This document shows, piece after piece, positions 29,733-34,740 of a stretch of 35,840 nt of DNA. The DNA lies in NCBI GenBank assembly GCA_018970165.1, contig JAGWWZ010000033.1:1-35840 (forward strand), read 5' to 3'. How positions within the stretch are numbered: position 1 is the first letter of the stretch; every line of letters begins with the position of its first letter. Source of the stretch: Planctomycetota bacterium. Its GTDB lineage: Bacteria; Planctomycetota; Planctomycetia; Pirellulales; Pirellulaceae. The translations under genes and the position numbers were made by a program. Below the pieces are notes generated by a model. It was not told the DNA's origin and ran no database searches. It saw only the letters and a program-made list of their open reading frames with translations.

Positions 29733-30863
29733 TTAGCCAACGCGGCCTCGCCATGCGGTGCGGACTCTGAAGATGCTCATCACCAGCGCGACCCATTGAA
29801 GGATCGTGAACCAGGCGATCGACAACGGATGCAAGAGGACTCCCAACCACGATTGACGGAAACGAATCGATGCAGCGACTCGCGGATACCATGACAACGC
29901 AGTCGCGATCGTTAGCAATCCGATCGTCATCCAGCCCGATCCTATAACCACGCTGATCACCAGCAATACGATGGGAAGGACGGATCCGCCGAGTAGCAAC
30001 ACAGAGAAGGGAAGAATCAAACGAGGATTGGCGATCCCTTCGGTCGCGTTCTTGAGCAAACCGCGGATGACTTGAGGCAAGGACTGATACATCCGACAGG
30101 TAGCGAGATCGGTTGCGTCGAAGATATCGGTCTTCATACCATGCTTGCGGAATGCCTTGGGCAGTTGAATGCCATCGTGCCGCGATGCCGCGATTGCGGA
30201 GTGACCTCCAACCTCAAAATAGCGATCCCGATGAGCGAGGAAGAGTTGACCGCATCCGGCTGCGAATCCCGGTTGTGTCGAAGATCGCATTTGATCGATA
30301 GGTAAAAAGCCCAACAACACGTAATGCATCAGCGGGATGAGGAGTTGTTCGGACCAAGTTCCCGTTTCTTGGCGCGGGAAACCGCTGATCAACGGTGATT
30401 GCCGCTCGCGGTACTCGGCAACGATGCGTGTCAACGCATCGCTGGACAATCTCACATCGGCATCCAGGAACAACAGCAGGTCATAACGAGCATGGCTGGC
30501 CAATCCCCAGCATGCATGCTGCTTTCCATTCCATCCCTGCGGCAATCCAGCCGATTGAACCAACCGTACGCGTGGATCGCTTGAGGCAAAGCCCTGAACG
30601 ACCTCTGCGGTCCGATCTTCGGAGGCATCATCCATGACGATAATCTCAAACTCCGGATGGCTCGACTGCAGGATCGATTGGAGTGCTCCGCTGATACTCG
30701 CTTCTTCATTGCGAGCAGGGATCAAGACGCTGACTCCGTCTGCCTTGGCCTTATCGATTACCAAAGGATCCTTGCAGGCTGGCTGAAATTGCTTCAGGTT
30801 GCGCATAGTCATCAAGGCGGGAAGAGTAGCCAGAGCAAACGCAATCAGGGCCAGAATAAACAT
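29733..30863 (-). CDS. GT2-family glycosyltransferase, CrtQ-like
   Basis: The 376-residue protein begins with one membrane helix (1-20). The GT-A domain follows, with VSVLIPARNEEASI, VMDDASEDRT, the metal-binding FLDADVRLS (DxD, about 133-136) and GFAAGCGQLFLA. At least two to three helices close the chain (about 280-376). This layout matches membrane GT2 enzymes that glycosylate carotenoid acids, such as CrtQ of the staphyloxanthin pathway. It is the last gene of a four-gene minus-strand run with aldehyde dehydrogenase, a CrtN/CrtP-type oxidoreductase and a PlsC-like acyltransferase; the upstream gene ends 12 bases before its ATG. Transfer of glucose to a C30 carotenoic acid is inferred from these neighbours and is not proved. 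Confidence 0.88.
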   Translation of the reverse strand: MFILALIAFALATLPALMTMRNLKQFQPACKDPLVIDKAKADGVSVLIPARNEEASISGALQSILQSSHPEFEIIVMDDASEDRTAEVVQGFASSDPRVRLVQSAGLPQGWNGKQHACWGLASHARYDLLLFLDADVRLSSDALTRIVAEYRERQSPLISGFPRQETGTWSEQLLIPLMHYVLLGFLPIDQMRSSTQPGFAAGCGQLFLAHRDRYFEVGGHSAIAASRHDGIQLPKAFRKHGMKTDIFDATDLATCRMYQSLPQVIRGLLKNATEGIANPRLILPFSVLLLGGSVLPIVLLVISVVIGSGWMTIGLLTIATALSWYPRVAASIRFRQSWLGVLLHPLSIAWFTILQWVALVMSIFRVRTAWRGRVG

Positions 30864-30875
30864 GAACAGTGGATG

Positions 30876-31667
30876 TTAGGATTGCGAGTTTCGGGTAACG
30901 GTAGAATGTCTAGGATCGAATGGTTGACCATGATACCAGGCAACCCAGGCGCGGACGGTATCGTACCACGAGGTTCTCGCGGCTCGCGGTGCGATGAGAT
31001 ATTCAAACAAATTGGCTTGGCGAAGCATGACCGAGGCGGCCAGGTCGTGCTGGGTTTGCCGCAGAGCTTTTTCGAGTTGTTCGCTACATTCCCGCTTGGA
31101 AACATCTCCGTCAAATACTTGGCGTGGTCCAAAGCGGACCGCGATCATCGGGCGAGGTTCTTCCCAAAACGGGTACTCGATCGCGAGTGGGAGAAAGGAA
31201 ACCGAGGGAACGCTCGCCGCGATATGCGCCAGGCCCGGCATCAGCGGTTGGGAGTGGTCTCGGCAATCCGCGAATCGTCCTTCGGGGGTTACCCACAAAC
31301 TCGAGCGAGGATCGGCCAGAATGGCGCGCGATGACTTCAAAAAATCCGAAGCGCCGGAAAGCCGATCGAGATGAATGCCGAAGAAGCCCATCTTCGAGAA
31401 GATGCGATATGCCTTGAGTGCCTCCGCATCGATGGGCGCATAGAGAATACGGTCCGAAAAGTACGACTTGCGAAGGAGCATCGCCGTGATTGGATCCCAC
31501 CAGCTGGCATGGTTAGCGTAGACCACCAATGCCTGATCTCTGGGTACGCAGGACGCAATAGGTTCGGCGAATTGGACACCGAATGCAGTGAACCGGCGGC
31601 TGACCATTCGGTGGGTGTAGCGACAGAACCCATCGACCAACCATGCTCTCGATTCGGGCAACGACAT
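30876..31667 (-). CDS. PlsC-type (lysophospholipid) acyltransferase
   Basis: The 263-residue protein carries the acyltransferase motif NHASWWDP (His53 and Asp58, the HX4D dyad) and the substrate motif WVTPEGRFAD. It shows the compact PlsC fold, with a weak membrane-associating N-terminus and no signal peptide. PlsC-family enzymes acylate glycerol phosphates, but in this position, between a carotenoid oxidoreductase and a GT2 enzyme, it may add a fatty acid to the sugar of a carotenoid glycoside, the job done by the unrelated CrtO in Staphylococcus. The gene starts nine bases after the oxidoreductase stop and ends 12 bases before the glycosyltransferase. Confidence 0.88.
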   Translation of the reverse strand: MSLPESRAWLVDGFCRYTHRMVSRRFTAFGVQFAEPIASCVPRDQALVVYANHASWWDPITAMLLRKSYFSDRILYAPIDAEALKAYRIFSKMGFFGIHLDRLSGASDFLKSSRAILADPRSSLWVTPEGRFADCRDHSQPLMPGLAHIAASVPSVSFLPLAIEYPFWEEPRPMIAVRFGPRQVFDGDVSKRECSEQLEKALRQTQHDLAASVMLRQANLFEYLIAPRAARTSWYDTVRAWVAWYHGQPFDPRHSTVTRNSQS

Positions 31668-31676
31668 AGCGAAGGA

Positions 31677-33221
31677 TTACGTCCCAGCTTTGGAAAGGCG
31701 TGTATCTTGATCGACCGTATCGCCAGCGATCCAACCGCTCATCATCACCATCGGCATACCTGGCCCGGGATGGGCTGCACCTCCTGCGAGGTAGAGTCCC
31801 TCCAGATCGCGCGAACGATTGGCTGGCTTAAATGCGCCGACGAAGCGACCGTGGCTGGCCAGTCCATAGATGGCACCATTGAGAACGCGGTACCGTTTGT
31901 GAATCCCTTCCGGAGTCAATGCATTCTCCATGACGATGCGATCGCGTATGCCCTTCATGCCACCGGTGGTCTCGAGTTTATCGAGGATGACTTCGCGGTA
32001 TTCGGGCAACATCTTTGACCAATCGTGATCGGGACGCAGGTAGGGAGTATGCACGAGAATGTACAGCGCTTCGCCTCCCTCTGGCGCTACCGCAGGTTCT
32101 GTTGCGGCCGGTGCACAGACGTACGCGGTCGGGTCGGGTGCGGGTTTGCCTTGCCGATAGATGTAATCGAACTCTTCGTGCGGATCGCGCGAGAACACGA
32201 AGTTATGATGAAGGATATGATCGTATCGCTTGTTGAGTCCCAGATAGAGGACAACCCCCGAGCACGCAGGTTCGTAGGTTCGTCGCTTGTCGAATCGGCG
32301 TTGTGCTTCACTACCGCTAAGCAATTCGCGATGCGTTCGGACTGAATCGCAGTTGGAGACGATCGCGTCGAACGAATACTGCTCGCCCGATGTTGTCGTC
32401 AACCCTGTGACTCGCATTCCATCGTTTTGGATCGATGCCACATCGGTACTGGTCTTGAAATCGACGCCGAGTCCTCTCGCAAGCTTTTCCAACGCCAAGG
32501 GCACCGCGCGCGTTCCTCCCATCGGATACCAGACTCCCTCTTCGGTCTGCATGTGCGCAATGCCGCACAGCACCGCAGGGGAGGCTTCGGGAGAGGATCC
32601 CACATACTGCGTGAAGTGGTCGATCATTTGTGCAGCGCGTTCATCCTTGACACACGATCGGACCAATCCCGCAACCGATCGTCCCATTCGCAAACTCAAT
32701 ACATCGACCAGCACCGATGCAGAGAAGGCTCCGGATACCTCCATGGTATCACCGATCCCGCCGACGCTTCGCCAGAAAAAGAACTTGTCGGAGACCTCAT
32801 GCAGTTTCTTCGAGATCTTCATGAAGCGATCGTATCCCTCGCCGACTCCGGGTTTGCCGGAGAACCGATCCAGGTTTTGCTTCATTTGTTGGATGTTGGC
32901 GACCAGATCCAAAGCGCTTCCATCGACAAAGAAGCATCTCCACTGCGGGTCGAGAGCCACCAATTCCATGTAGTCGCTCAGTTTGCGTCCCGCTTCGTCA
33001 AAGATGCGTTTCAGGACCGAAGGGAGCGTGAGAATGGTTGGGCCCATATCGAACCGGAAGCCGTCCTGATGGTGGACTGCGGCTTTTCCTCCCACCCACT
33101 CGTTTTTCTCAAACACCGTGACTTTGTGACCGCGAGCGGCCAGGGTGCAAGCGGCAGCCAGACCTGCAAGGCCACCACCTATCACCGCCACATTCAAACT
33201 GCGTCCTGACCGCTTAATCAT
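31677..33221 (-). CDS. CrtI/CrtN/CrtP-family carotenoid desaturase or oxidase
   Basis: The ATG at 33221 overlaps the aldehyde dehydrogenase stop by eight bases and starts just before the FAD-binding strand; a longer frame to 33344 lies inside that gene. The 514-residue protein begins NVAVIGGGLAGLAAACTLAA, the Rossmann dinucleotide fold, with FEKNEWVGGKA and FDMGPTILTLPSV. It ends with the family's second FAD motif (YLAGGAAHPGPGMPMVMMSG). These enzymes desaturate or oxidise carotenoid chains in the membrane. Staphyloxanthin producers have two such enzymes (CrtN and CrtP); only one is here, and which step it performs cannot be decided from sequence alone. A squalene- or dehydrosqualene-forming gene is not in the window. 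Confidence 0.9.
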   Translation of the reverse strand: MIKRSGRSLNVAVIGGGLAGLAAACTLAARGHKVTVFEKNEWVGGKAAVHHQDGFRFDMGPTILTLPSVLKRIFDEAGRKLSDYMELVALDPQWRCFFVDGSALDLVANIQQMKQNLDRFSGKPGVGEGYDRFMKISKKLHEVSDKFFFWRSVGGIGDTMEVSGAFSASVLVDVLSLRMGRSVAGLVRSCVKDERAAQMIDHFTQYVGSSPEASPAVLCGIAHMQTEEGVWYPMGGTRAVPLALEKLARGLGVDFKTSTDVASIQNDGMRVTGLTTTSGEQYSFDAIVSNCDSVRTHRELLSGSEAQRRFDKRRTYEPACSGVVLYLGLNKRYDHILHHNFVFSRDPHEEFDYIYRQGKPAPDPTAYVCAPAATEPAVAPEGGEALYILVHTPYLRPDHDWSKMLPEYREVILDKLETTGGMKGIRDRIVMENALTPEGIHKRYRVLNGAIYGLASHGRFVGAFKPANRSRDLEGLYLAGGAAHPGPGMPMVMMSGWIAGDTVDQDTRLSKAGT

Positions 33222-34740
33222 TCGATTTCCTGTTTTTTCGTTGCAATAGTATGGCCTGCACGATTTGACGGAGTCCAGCCAAGCGGCGTCTCCAATTCTT
33301 CCCGTGCACGAATTGTAACACCCCGTCGAGCAACTGTTCATCACCCTCGGCGGGTAATGCCGCGTGGGGCAGCCAGCTTCCCAACCGCGTCGAAACGACC
33401 TTCGGAACGGTCATCGATAGCAATCCCTCGTGTCCGCGGGTCACACCGAAACCGCTTTCCCCGCGACCGCCAAAGGGGAGTCGCGGGTCGGCTGTCGGAA
33501 CGATGAGGTCGTTGATCGTGATGGTTCCCGCCGAGATCAACGGCACCAGACGAAGAGCATCTTCGAGCGGTCCAAAGATGGACGCGGTCAATGCATACGG
33601 ACATTGCGAATCAGCCATGAGCGCATCGGACCAATTCTCCAAAGGAACAATCATCACGAGGGGGGCAAAAATCTCTTCGCGGTAGAGTTTCATATCGGTG
33701 CGGACATCGGTCAGAACGATATGTCCTGTAGATACCCACTCGGGTTCCGGCCCCGATACAGAAGACGCCTGTCTGGCTTCTCCAGAAAAGATACGAGCCC
33801 CTTTATTCAGGGCATCTGCAACGCCATCCCAAAGTCGGCGATACGTTGTCGCAGCGATCGGAGTTCGCCAATCGCGCTGCGCCGGATCGGACAATCGTTC
33901 GGCGAGCAGTCGATAGAAGACCTCGCATACTTTATGGGGCACGAAGACTCGACGTGGCGCCATACAGGTGGCGCCGCCGTTGAGCCGCATACCGAATCGA
34001 AGGAGATCGCACACGCGATGAAGGTCCGCGCCCGGAAGGACATAAACGGCATCGTTTCCGCTCAGCTCCAACGTCGCTGATGTCAGCGACGGGATCGCTT
34101 GATTCAAAACAGCTCGACCGCTCAGGCTACTCCCCGTGATCACGACATGATCGACACCCAGTTGCATCGCCGATTTCGCCGCATCAACGCTACTATCCAG
34201 CAGAATGATCAACGACTCGGGTACTCCGCATGCAATCAATTGCTTTACCAGGTGACGAACGACACCCTCGGTGCGAGGAGCAGGCTTGATCGCTACTGCG
34301 TTGCCGGCGACCAAGGCTTGGATCAATTGCACGCCGGTCAACAAGATCGGATAGTTCCATGTTCCAATGATCAAAACCATACCGTGCGGAACACGATGAA
34401 CCACCGATCGCAATCGGCCAAGCCAATACGGACTTCCTCCCCCATCGAGATAACGGGTTGCGAGGGTTCGAGTGGCATAGCGAGAAACCCACTTTGCGGC
34501 ATCGGCCAGCGGAAGCAATTCGGAGGAAACGGTCTCGCGATAACCGCCTCGCATCGGCAAGTCGAGCAGTCGCTGAAATTCTTCCCTGTCATCGACGATC
34601 ATGGCAGACAGTTGACCTATGATCTTTGCGCGGGCTCGGATGGTCTGCTGGCTCCATCGAAGCTGCGACTGATACGCTGCCGCGAACGCAGCTTCTATCT
34701 GCGGGGCCTGCTTCTTTGGATCGTCGGGGCCGTTGCTCAC
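33214..34740 (-). CDS. aldehyde dehydrogenase of the carotenoid gene set
   Basis: The 508-residue protein has the ALDH active-site residues: Asn129 in IIGTWNYP, Glu225 in LELSGND and the nucleophile Cys259 in NGGATCMAPRR. The NAD(P) site includes VITGSSLSG. It oxidises aldehydes to acids with NAD(P). As the first gene of the run, with the CrtN/CrtP-type gene overlapping its stop (ATGATTAA), it is a good candidate for turning a terminal carotenal into the carotenoic acid, the AldH step of staphyloxanthin synthesis. The C-terminal 60 residues are basic (GKNWRRRLAGLRQIVQAILL) and could associate with the membrane, as in fatty-aldehyde dehydrogenases. Substrate is inferred from context. Confidence 0.9.
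   Translation of the reverse strand: MSNGPDDPKKQAPQIEAAFAAAYQSQLRWSQQTIRARAKIIGQLSAMIVDDREEFQRLLDLPMRGGYRETVSSELLPLADAAKWVSRYATRTLATRYLDGGGSPYWLGRLRSVVHRVPHGMVLIIGTWNYPILLTGVQLIQALVAGNAVAIKPAPRTEGVVRHLVKQLIACGVPESLIILLDSSVDAAKSAMQLGVDHVVITGSSLSGRAVLNQAIPSLTSATLELSGNDAVYVLPGADLHRVCDLLRFGMRLNGGATCMAPRRVFVPHKVCEVFYRLLAERLSDPAQRDWRTPIAATTYRRLWDGVADALNKGARIFSGEARQASSVSGPEPEWVSTGHIVLTDVRTDMKLYREEIFAPLVMIVPLENWSDALMADSQCPYALTASIFGPLEDALRLVPLISAGTITINDLIVPTADPRLPFGGRGESGFGVTRGHEGLLSMTVPKVVSTRLGSWLPHAALPAEGDEQLLDGVLQFVHGKNWRRRLAGLRQIVQAILLQRKNRKSND

Follow-up and report, generated by a model that had tools for sequence, protein, structure and literature searches.

Here we describe a four-gene operon on the minus strand of a 35,840-nucleotide stretch of planctomycete DNA (the window: contig JAGWWZ010000033.1, positions 1 to 35,840, assembly GCA_018970165.1, family Pirellulaceae), which is contig 84 of a source genome of 5.2 Mb in 330 contigs. 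The operon encodes an aldehyde dehydrogenase (AldH), the CrtI-family oxidoreductase CrtP, a PlsC-type acyltransferase (PlsC) and a membrane glycosyltransferase (GT2). We read it, with a probability of about 85%, as an operon for the late steps of a C30 carotenoid pathway that runs through squalene and whose product would be an acylated glycosyl ester of a C30 diacid. Sequence comparison makes an acyl-glycosyl C30 carotenoid operon a well-supported assignment and places the operon as a further member of a gene set already known from Methylobacterium and Azospirillum. What is in hand for this genome is the gene content, the family placement of the proteins and a conserved neighbourhood; the chemistry throughout, the choice of a diacid over a monoacid, the sugar, the acyl chain and the role in this organism are what we infer.

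In the proposed pathway, squalene would be produced by HpnC and a fused HpnD-HpnE, both encoded elsewhere in the genome, and the squalene product would be desaturated by CrtN, also encoded elsewhere. The terminal methyl groups would be oxidized to aldehydes by CrtP, and the aldehydes to acids by AldH. GT2 would then attach a sugar to an acid through an ester bond, and PlsC would acylate that sugar. This would probably yield an acylated glycosyl ester of 4,4'-diapolycopene-4,4'-dioic acid, a membrane pigment that may protect the cell from light and oxidative stress.

Enzymes of the operon

The genes are ordered AldH (positions 33214..34740), CrtP (31677..33221), PlsC (30876..31667) and GT2 (29733..30863), all on the minus strand, and the four open reading frames lie where the sequence-only reading had placed them. 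Its spacing of 8-12 bases also holds: AldH ends at 33214 and overlaps by 8 bases with CrtP (ATG at 33221), and gaps of 9 and 12 bases separate CrtP from PlsC and PlsC from GT2. A GTG start listed at 33344 merely extends the CrtP frame into AldH. Pfam and NCBIfam profiles bear out the families proposed for the window proteins: AldH matches PF00171 (Aldedh, 1.6e-75), CrtP, a predicted diapocarotene terminal oxidase, TIGR02734 (crtI_fam, 408.9 bits against a NCBIfam cut-off of 238.1), PlsC PF01553 (33.6 bits, cut-off 23) and GT2 PF00535 (81.1 bits, cut-off 23.3). The motifs that we take to be catalytic are intact, with the Cys in GATCMAPR (256) and the Glu in ELSG (225) in AldH, GGGLAG at residue 15 in CrtP, HASWWD (53, the HX4D motif) and PEGR (128) in PlsC, and DD (78) and DAD (134) in GT2, which has hydrophobic stretches at residues 1-21, 280-323 and 342-367.

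The oxidoreductase, which had been described only as CrtN/CrtP-type, is by sequence a CrtP, not CrtN or CrtI. In a 44-protein tree of the CrtI family it falls in one clade (support 100) with the Methylobacterium and staphylococcal CrtP, and it is closer to staphylococcal CrtP (35% identity) than to the CrtN of the same staphylococcal cluster (28%). The rhodopsin-linked CrtI of two members of the genus falls apart from these, with Pantoea CrtI. This quick tree was built from hand-picked proteins (10 phylum loci, 4 genus loci, and 11 from Alphaproteobacteria, Bacillota, Pantoea and Thermus); its staphylococcal members sit on long branches, and the outgroup chosen for rooting does not form one side of any branch. 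A sequence search of solved structures with CrtP returned none named CrtP, the nearest being 4rep (gamma-carotene desaturase) and 4dgk (phytoene dehydrogenase).

The acyltransferase and the membrane GT2 lie directly downstream of crtP, as seen in the gene order here and in related loci and considered together with PlsC and GT2 trees. GT2 likely joins a sugar to the carotenoid acid as an ester, and PlsC likely adds a fatty acid to that sugar. The acyltransferase is PlsC-type rather than CrtO, as had been noted; compared directly with a staphylococcal CrtO, it gave no significant match (best E 1.7, across 19 residues). Staphyloxanthin proper was rejected as the product on this ground. PlsC in place of CrtO is a known variant, since homologues have been characterized in Methylobacterium and Azospirillum.

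AldH should oxidize the terminal carotenoid aldehyde or aldehydes to the carboxylic acid or acids. In a quick tree of a small hand-chosen set, 22 operon-linked AldHs from the window phylum and Alphaproteobacteria, the window AldH among them, are split by one branch (support 100) from 14 other aldehyde dehydrogenases, which were taken from Methylobacterium/Methylorubrum and Azospirillum as matches to the Azospirillum AldH (E <= 1e-20) in four Methylobacterium/Methylorubrum genomes and one plasmid. The tree leaves out the L032 fragment, the genus AldHs of L063, L064 and L066-L072, and a weak match in L161 (28%); the AldH of L216 (28.6% identity) was found after the tree was made (L and G numbers denote loci and genomes). 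With the Azospirillum AldH as query, no AldH of the operon clade was found in the four Methylobacterium/Methylorubrum genomes, where the aldehyde dehydrogenases matched all lie outside the clade; this agrees with the lack of success in identifying the enzyme in M. extorquens.

Upstream of the operon, on the same strand and separated by a 93-base gap, is a M19 dipeptidase gene, and downstream a gene in convergent orientation encodes a class I (Glu/Gln) tRNA synthetase domain.

Precursor genes and a separate C40 cluster

The sequence-only reading had proposed a search of the genome for hpnCDE or crtM and a second crtN or crtP, and this search returned HpnC, HpnD and HpnE fused in one frame, and a CrtN encoded separately. 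HpnC scores 256.2 bits against a NCBIfam cut-off of 250.45, and directly after it a 927-aa frame (L015 8036-10819, contig 233) joins HpnD to HpnE, the HpnE part scoring 388.1 bits against a cut-off of 283.05. Two SQS_PSY matches stand side by side on a single contig. A second full CrtI-family gene is located on contig 55 (crtI_fam, 525.5 bits) and groups with Methylobacterium CrtN in the 44-protein tree. As HpnC, HpnD-HpnE and CrtN occur in the same genome, this genome is not one without a C30 precursor pathway. Three SQS_PSY genes are present in all, labelled HpnC, HpnD and CrtB from their neighbours and NCBIfam matches; the best model for the copy labelled CrtB is HpnD (184.4 bits, cut-off 278.6), and in a 17-row synthase tree the staphylococcal CrtM sits on a long branch whose placement is uncertain.

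The HpnD match lies within an open frame of at least 790 aa in 23 of the 26 genus genomes having HpnD, with HpnE checked in the window genome and G251, and in G256 the HpnC and HpnD matches both lie within 1122-aa frames. An apparent HpnC-HpnD fusion, with two squalene/phytoene synthase domains in one 552-aa protein, is encoded in Microvirga ossetica (L074 11394-13052). A KASIII-like gene (ACP_syn_III_C) is found near the detached crtN in the window genome (L014 12498-13595) and in G263 (L202 8543-9625). In other relatives, a putative one-enzyme squalene synthase adjoins the carotenoid genes (L054 8550-9512, L055 12963-13922, L040 11680-12885); all three match the squalene synthase TIGR01559 below its cut-off of 286.75, and for the L054 and L055 genes this is the best model, at about 87 bits. 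Such a putative enzyme stands beside the operon in G303 and G275, which we count in favour of the squalene route, and it possibly stands in for HpnCDE in those relatives.

The same genome also carries C40 genes on contigs 117 (L013 773-4974) and 46 (L012 2-1545), comprising CrtE, CrtI (cut by contig ends), a CrtB-like synthase, CrtY, Blh and a xanthorhodopsin-like rhodopsin, whose best relatives in the PDB are psXR, the Gll0198 protein and xanthorhodopsin. The presence of CrtY, Blh and rhodopsin in this cluster points to retinal, and supplying retinal is the most plausible role of the set. The rhodopsin residue aligned with xanthorhodopsin residue 156 is a glycine, which we take to form the antenna opening. 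Salinixanthin, a known rhodopsin antenna, is an acyl-glucoside. That the acylated glycosyl C30 carotenoid of the operon acts as a light-harvesting antenna for the pump of the same genome is nonetheless a far-fetched proposition; gene co-occurrence neither supports nor excludes it, since nearly every genome of the genus has the operon genes, and 14 of 27 have rhodopsin.

Distribution of the cassette

The order CrtP, lysophospholipid acyltransferase, glycosyltransferase occurs on plasmids of Azospirillum brasilense, A. oryzae, Microvirga ossetica, Limimaricola variabilis, Palleronia sp. and Gluconobacter thailandicus, with CrtN just ahead (one gene between in Microvirga) and an aldehyde dehydrogenase nearby. 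In a survey of 89 further loci, which counts presence only because order came from first-start open reading frames that run long, CrtP, PlsC and GT2 were found together in 84: 77 of the 80 genome-contig loci of Methylobacterium, Microvirga and related genomes, and seven of the nine plasmid loci, the other two being from Bacillota. GT2 is on the opposite strand in L161. AldH was matched in one of the 80 genome-contig loci (at 28%), and the unannotated Indioceanicola plasmid (L080) encodes CrtN, CrtP, PlsC and GT2 with no AldH match within 17 kb. A sulfotransferase gene lies right after GT2 in A. oryzae (L081 11446-12558) and Palleronia (L078 11352-12461), hinting at a sulfated version of the glycosyl carotenoid.

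Functions have been assigned to cassettes of this type in two of these groups. Mo et al. (2023, PMC10448405) describe deletion and complementation in M. extorquens AM1, which established that the glycosyltransferase META1p3663 and the lysophospholipid-type acyltransferase META1p3664 turn 4,4'-diapolycopene-4,4'-dioic acid into its 2-O-octadecenoyl-glucosyl ester, the glycosyltransferase acting first. As given there, META1p3665-3664-3663 (CrtP, PlsC-type acyltransferase, glycosyltransferase) comprises the same three enzyme types as the window operon and draws on an HpnCDE precursor route; no CrtO homologue was found, and two AldH candidates were not involved. In that account AM1 has no linked or identified AldH, whereas the window operon begins with one, and CrtN (META1p3670) is close by in AM1 but on another contig in the window genome. 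The 80 genome-contig loci included none from M. extorquens itself; compared through Methylorubrum rhodinum DSM 2163 (L123), which has CrtN upstream, identities to the window proteins are 64% for CrtP, 33% for PlsC and 42% for GT2. The corresponding values for A. brasilense MTCC4038 (L073) are 67%, 38% and 48%, with 45% for AldH; this locus differs from the window in having AldH divergently oriented and CrtN inside the operon. In A. brasilense Sp7, according to a 2026 report (PMC13274349), carotenoids are lost when either hpnCDE or crtNPOQ is deleted, and crtNPOQ deletion leads to squalene build-up. The staphyloxanthin cluster crtOPQMN, compared through a Staphylococcus pasteuri plasmid (L077), is less similar, with a homologous CrtP (35%), a CrtQ only weakly similar to GT2 (28%), a CrtO not similar to PlsC, and a precursor route other than the HpnCDE of the window genome. 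The reading from the sequence, of a glycosylated, acylated C30 product, is supported, with one refinement: instead of a staphyloxanthin cluster in which the acyltransferase has been exchanged, the operon is the CrtP-PlsC-GT2 cassette of Methylobacterium and Azospirillum.

Likened by product alone, Rubritalea squalenifaciens (Verrucomicrobia) makes diapolycopenedioic acid xylosyl esters A-C, which share the C30 diacid aglycone and a 2-acylated sugar, here xylose (PMC3967232). C30, C40 and C45 carotenoids are on record for the planctomycete phylum (PMC12078418). Our literature search found no acylated glycosyl C30 product in planctomycetes; subscription literature mostly lay outside its reach, and absence in print is not claimed.

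Among 246 sampled genomes of the phylum, PlsC matches were found in 13, the window genome included, and CrtP (E <= 1e-90) in 18, among them all 13 with PlsC; this search scored at most six candidates per genome and may miss diverged CrtPs. Around the other PlsC matches, CrtP, PlsC and GT2 are in order at 11 of 12 distant loci, the 12th ending at a contig edge, with CrtN beside the cassette in nine and AldH in six (one a fragment match). Recurrence of the same neighbours in distant genomes argues that the arrangement is not due to chance. Of the relatives in the order or family, L053 is arranged crtN-aldH-crtP-plsC-GT2, L054 and L055 have this gene set plus the squalene-synthase-like gene, L056 is without AldH, L057 is without CrtN, and L058 has AldH-CrtP only.

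CrtP was found in all 27 genomes of the genus (one a fragment, one split over two frames), PlsC in 25 (one with an internal stop) and a close GT2 in 25, a 26th (G248) having one only 28% identical; CrtP, PlsC and a close GT2 are all present in 23, and SQS_PSY genes in 26. The three cassette genes are together on one contig in G000, G250 and G263, and in G252 and G270 the arrangement is compatible with a joined set across contig ends. CrtP adjoins PlsC, with GT2 not shown adjacent, in seven genomes (two reaching a contig end), and PlsC adjoins GT2, not shown beside CrtP, in three; in the remaining 12 the genes are on separate contigs, far apart, or one is lacking. The one-contig genome G251 has CrtP at ~4.96 Mb, PlsC at ~5.24 Mb and GT2 at ~0.74 Mb. 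AldH adjoins CrtP in 14 of 14 genus loci inspected (of 26 other genomes), and AldH-CrtP is the most stable link in the genus.

Alternative products and significance

Several observations weigh against an acylated glycosyl C30 product. In most genomes of the genus PlsC and/or GT2 are not shown beside crtP, so that operon linkage is weak there, although the genes are mostly kept despite the broken operon, which argues for a joint function. PlsC was not matched in five of the 18 phylum genomes that have CrtP; at their five loci (two of them contigs of 12.2 and 5.2 kb) CrtN and CrtP are present, three also have AldH, and none shows PlsC or GT2. G255 has CrtP yet no SQS_PSY match, and the HpnD part of the window genome's fusion scores 190.2 bits, under the NCBIfam cut-off of 278.6, albeit fused to HpnE. 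Outside the genus, cassette PlsCs share just 29-43% identity with the window PlsC, so that the acceptor of the latter is predicted by analogy. M. extorquens PA1 has the cassette but makes no glycosylated product (PMC10448405).

A rival reading is a pigment that is a free or methylated C30 acid, with PlsC and GT2 serving another lipid and merely adjoining crtP. The best NCBIfam match of GT2 is HpnB (116.2 bits, under the cut-off of 379.25), the constant partner of CrtP in the genus is AldH rather than PlsC or GT2, and CrtN-CrtP loci exist without the latter two. Yet PlsC and GT2 recur beside crtP in distant phylum genomes and in Alphaproteobacteria, and their AM1 homologues glycosylate and acylate a carotenoid (PMC10448405), so we hold this reading to be improbable. 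A staphyloxanthin-type monoacid with a diaponeurosporenoic acid backbone is unlikely: CrtP is shared with the staphyloxanthin route, but the window CrtP and the CrtN of the genome resemble the Methylobacterium enzymes far more closely, and for these the same paper gives a diacid aglycone.

Decoration of a C40 carotenoid from the genome's other cluster (CrtE, CrtI, CrtB, CrtY) can be considered because that cluster exists, and because in Thermus a PlsC gene adjoins a glycosyltransferase gene beside a lycopene cyclase domain gene, so that the PlsC-glycosyltransferase pair is not C30-specific. The cluster itself leads towards retinal through CrtY, Blh and rhodopsin, however, and CrtN neighbours the cassette at most of the distant phylum loci. 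Against CrtP in every genome of the genus, 13 of the 27 have no match to rhodopsin, used as marker of the C40 cluster (several of the 13 are incomplete). One of these, G249, has a third SQS_PSY gene, and the single contig of G251 encodes CrtP, AldH, PlsC, GT2, CrtN and hpnCDE with just two SQS_PSY genes and no rhodopsin. This reading, very improbable in our estimate, was rejected on the CrtI-family phylogeny and the genus distribution; the C40 cluster does not explain the operon.

With an acylated glycosyl C30 ester as the product, this genus (23 of 27 genomes with CrtP, PlsC and a close GT2) would join the carriers of an acyl-glycosyl C30 carotenoid cassette whose function has been proven genetically, and the product class is predicted for it. 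A C30 route and a C40 retinal route are encoded side by side in one genome. The operon-AldH clade, linked to CrtP in two phyla, provides a concrete candidate for the aldehyde-oxidation step that is unassigned in M. extorquens AM1.

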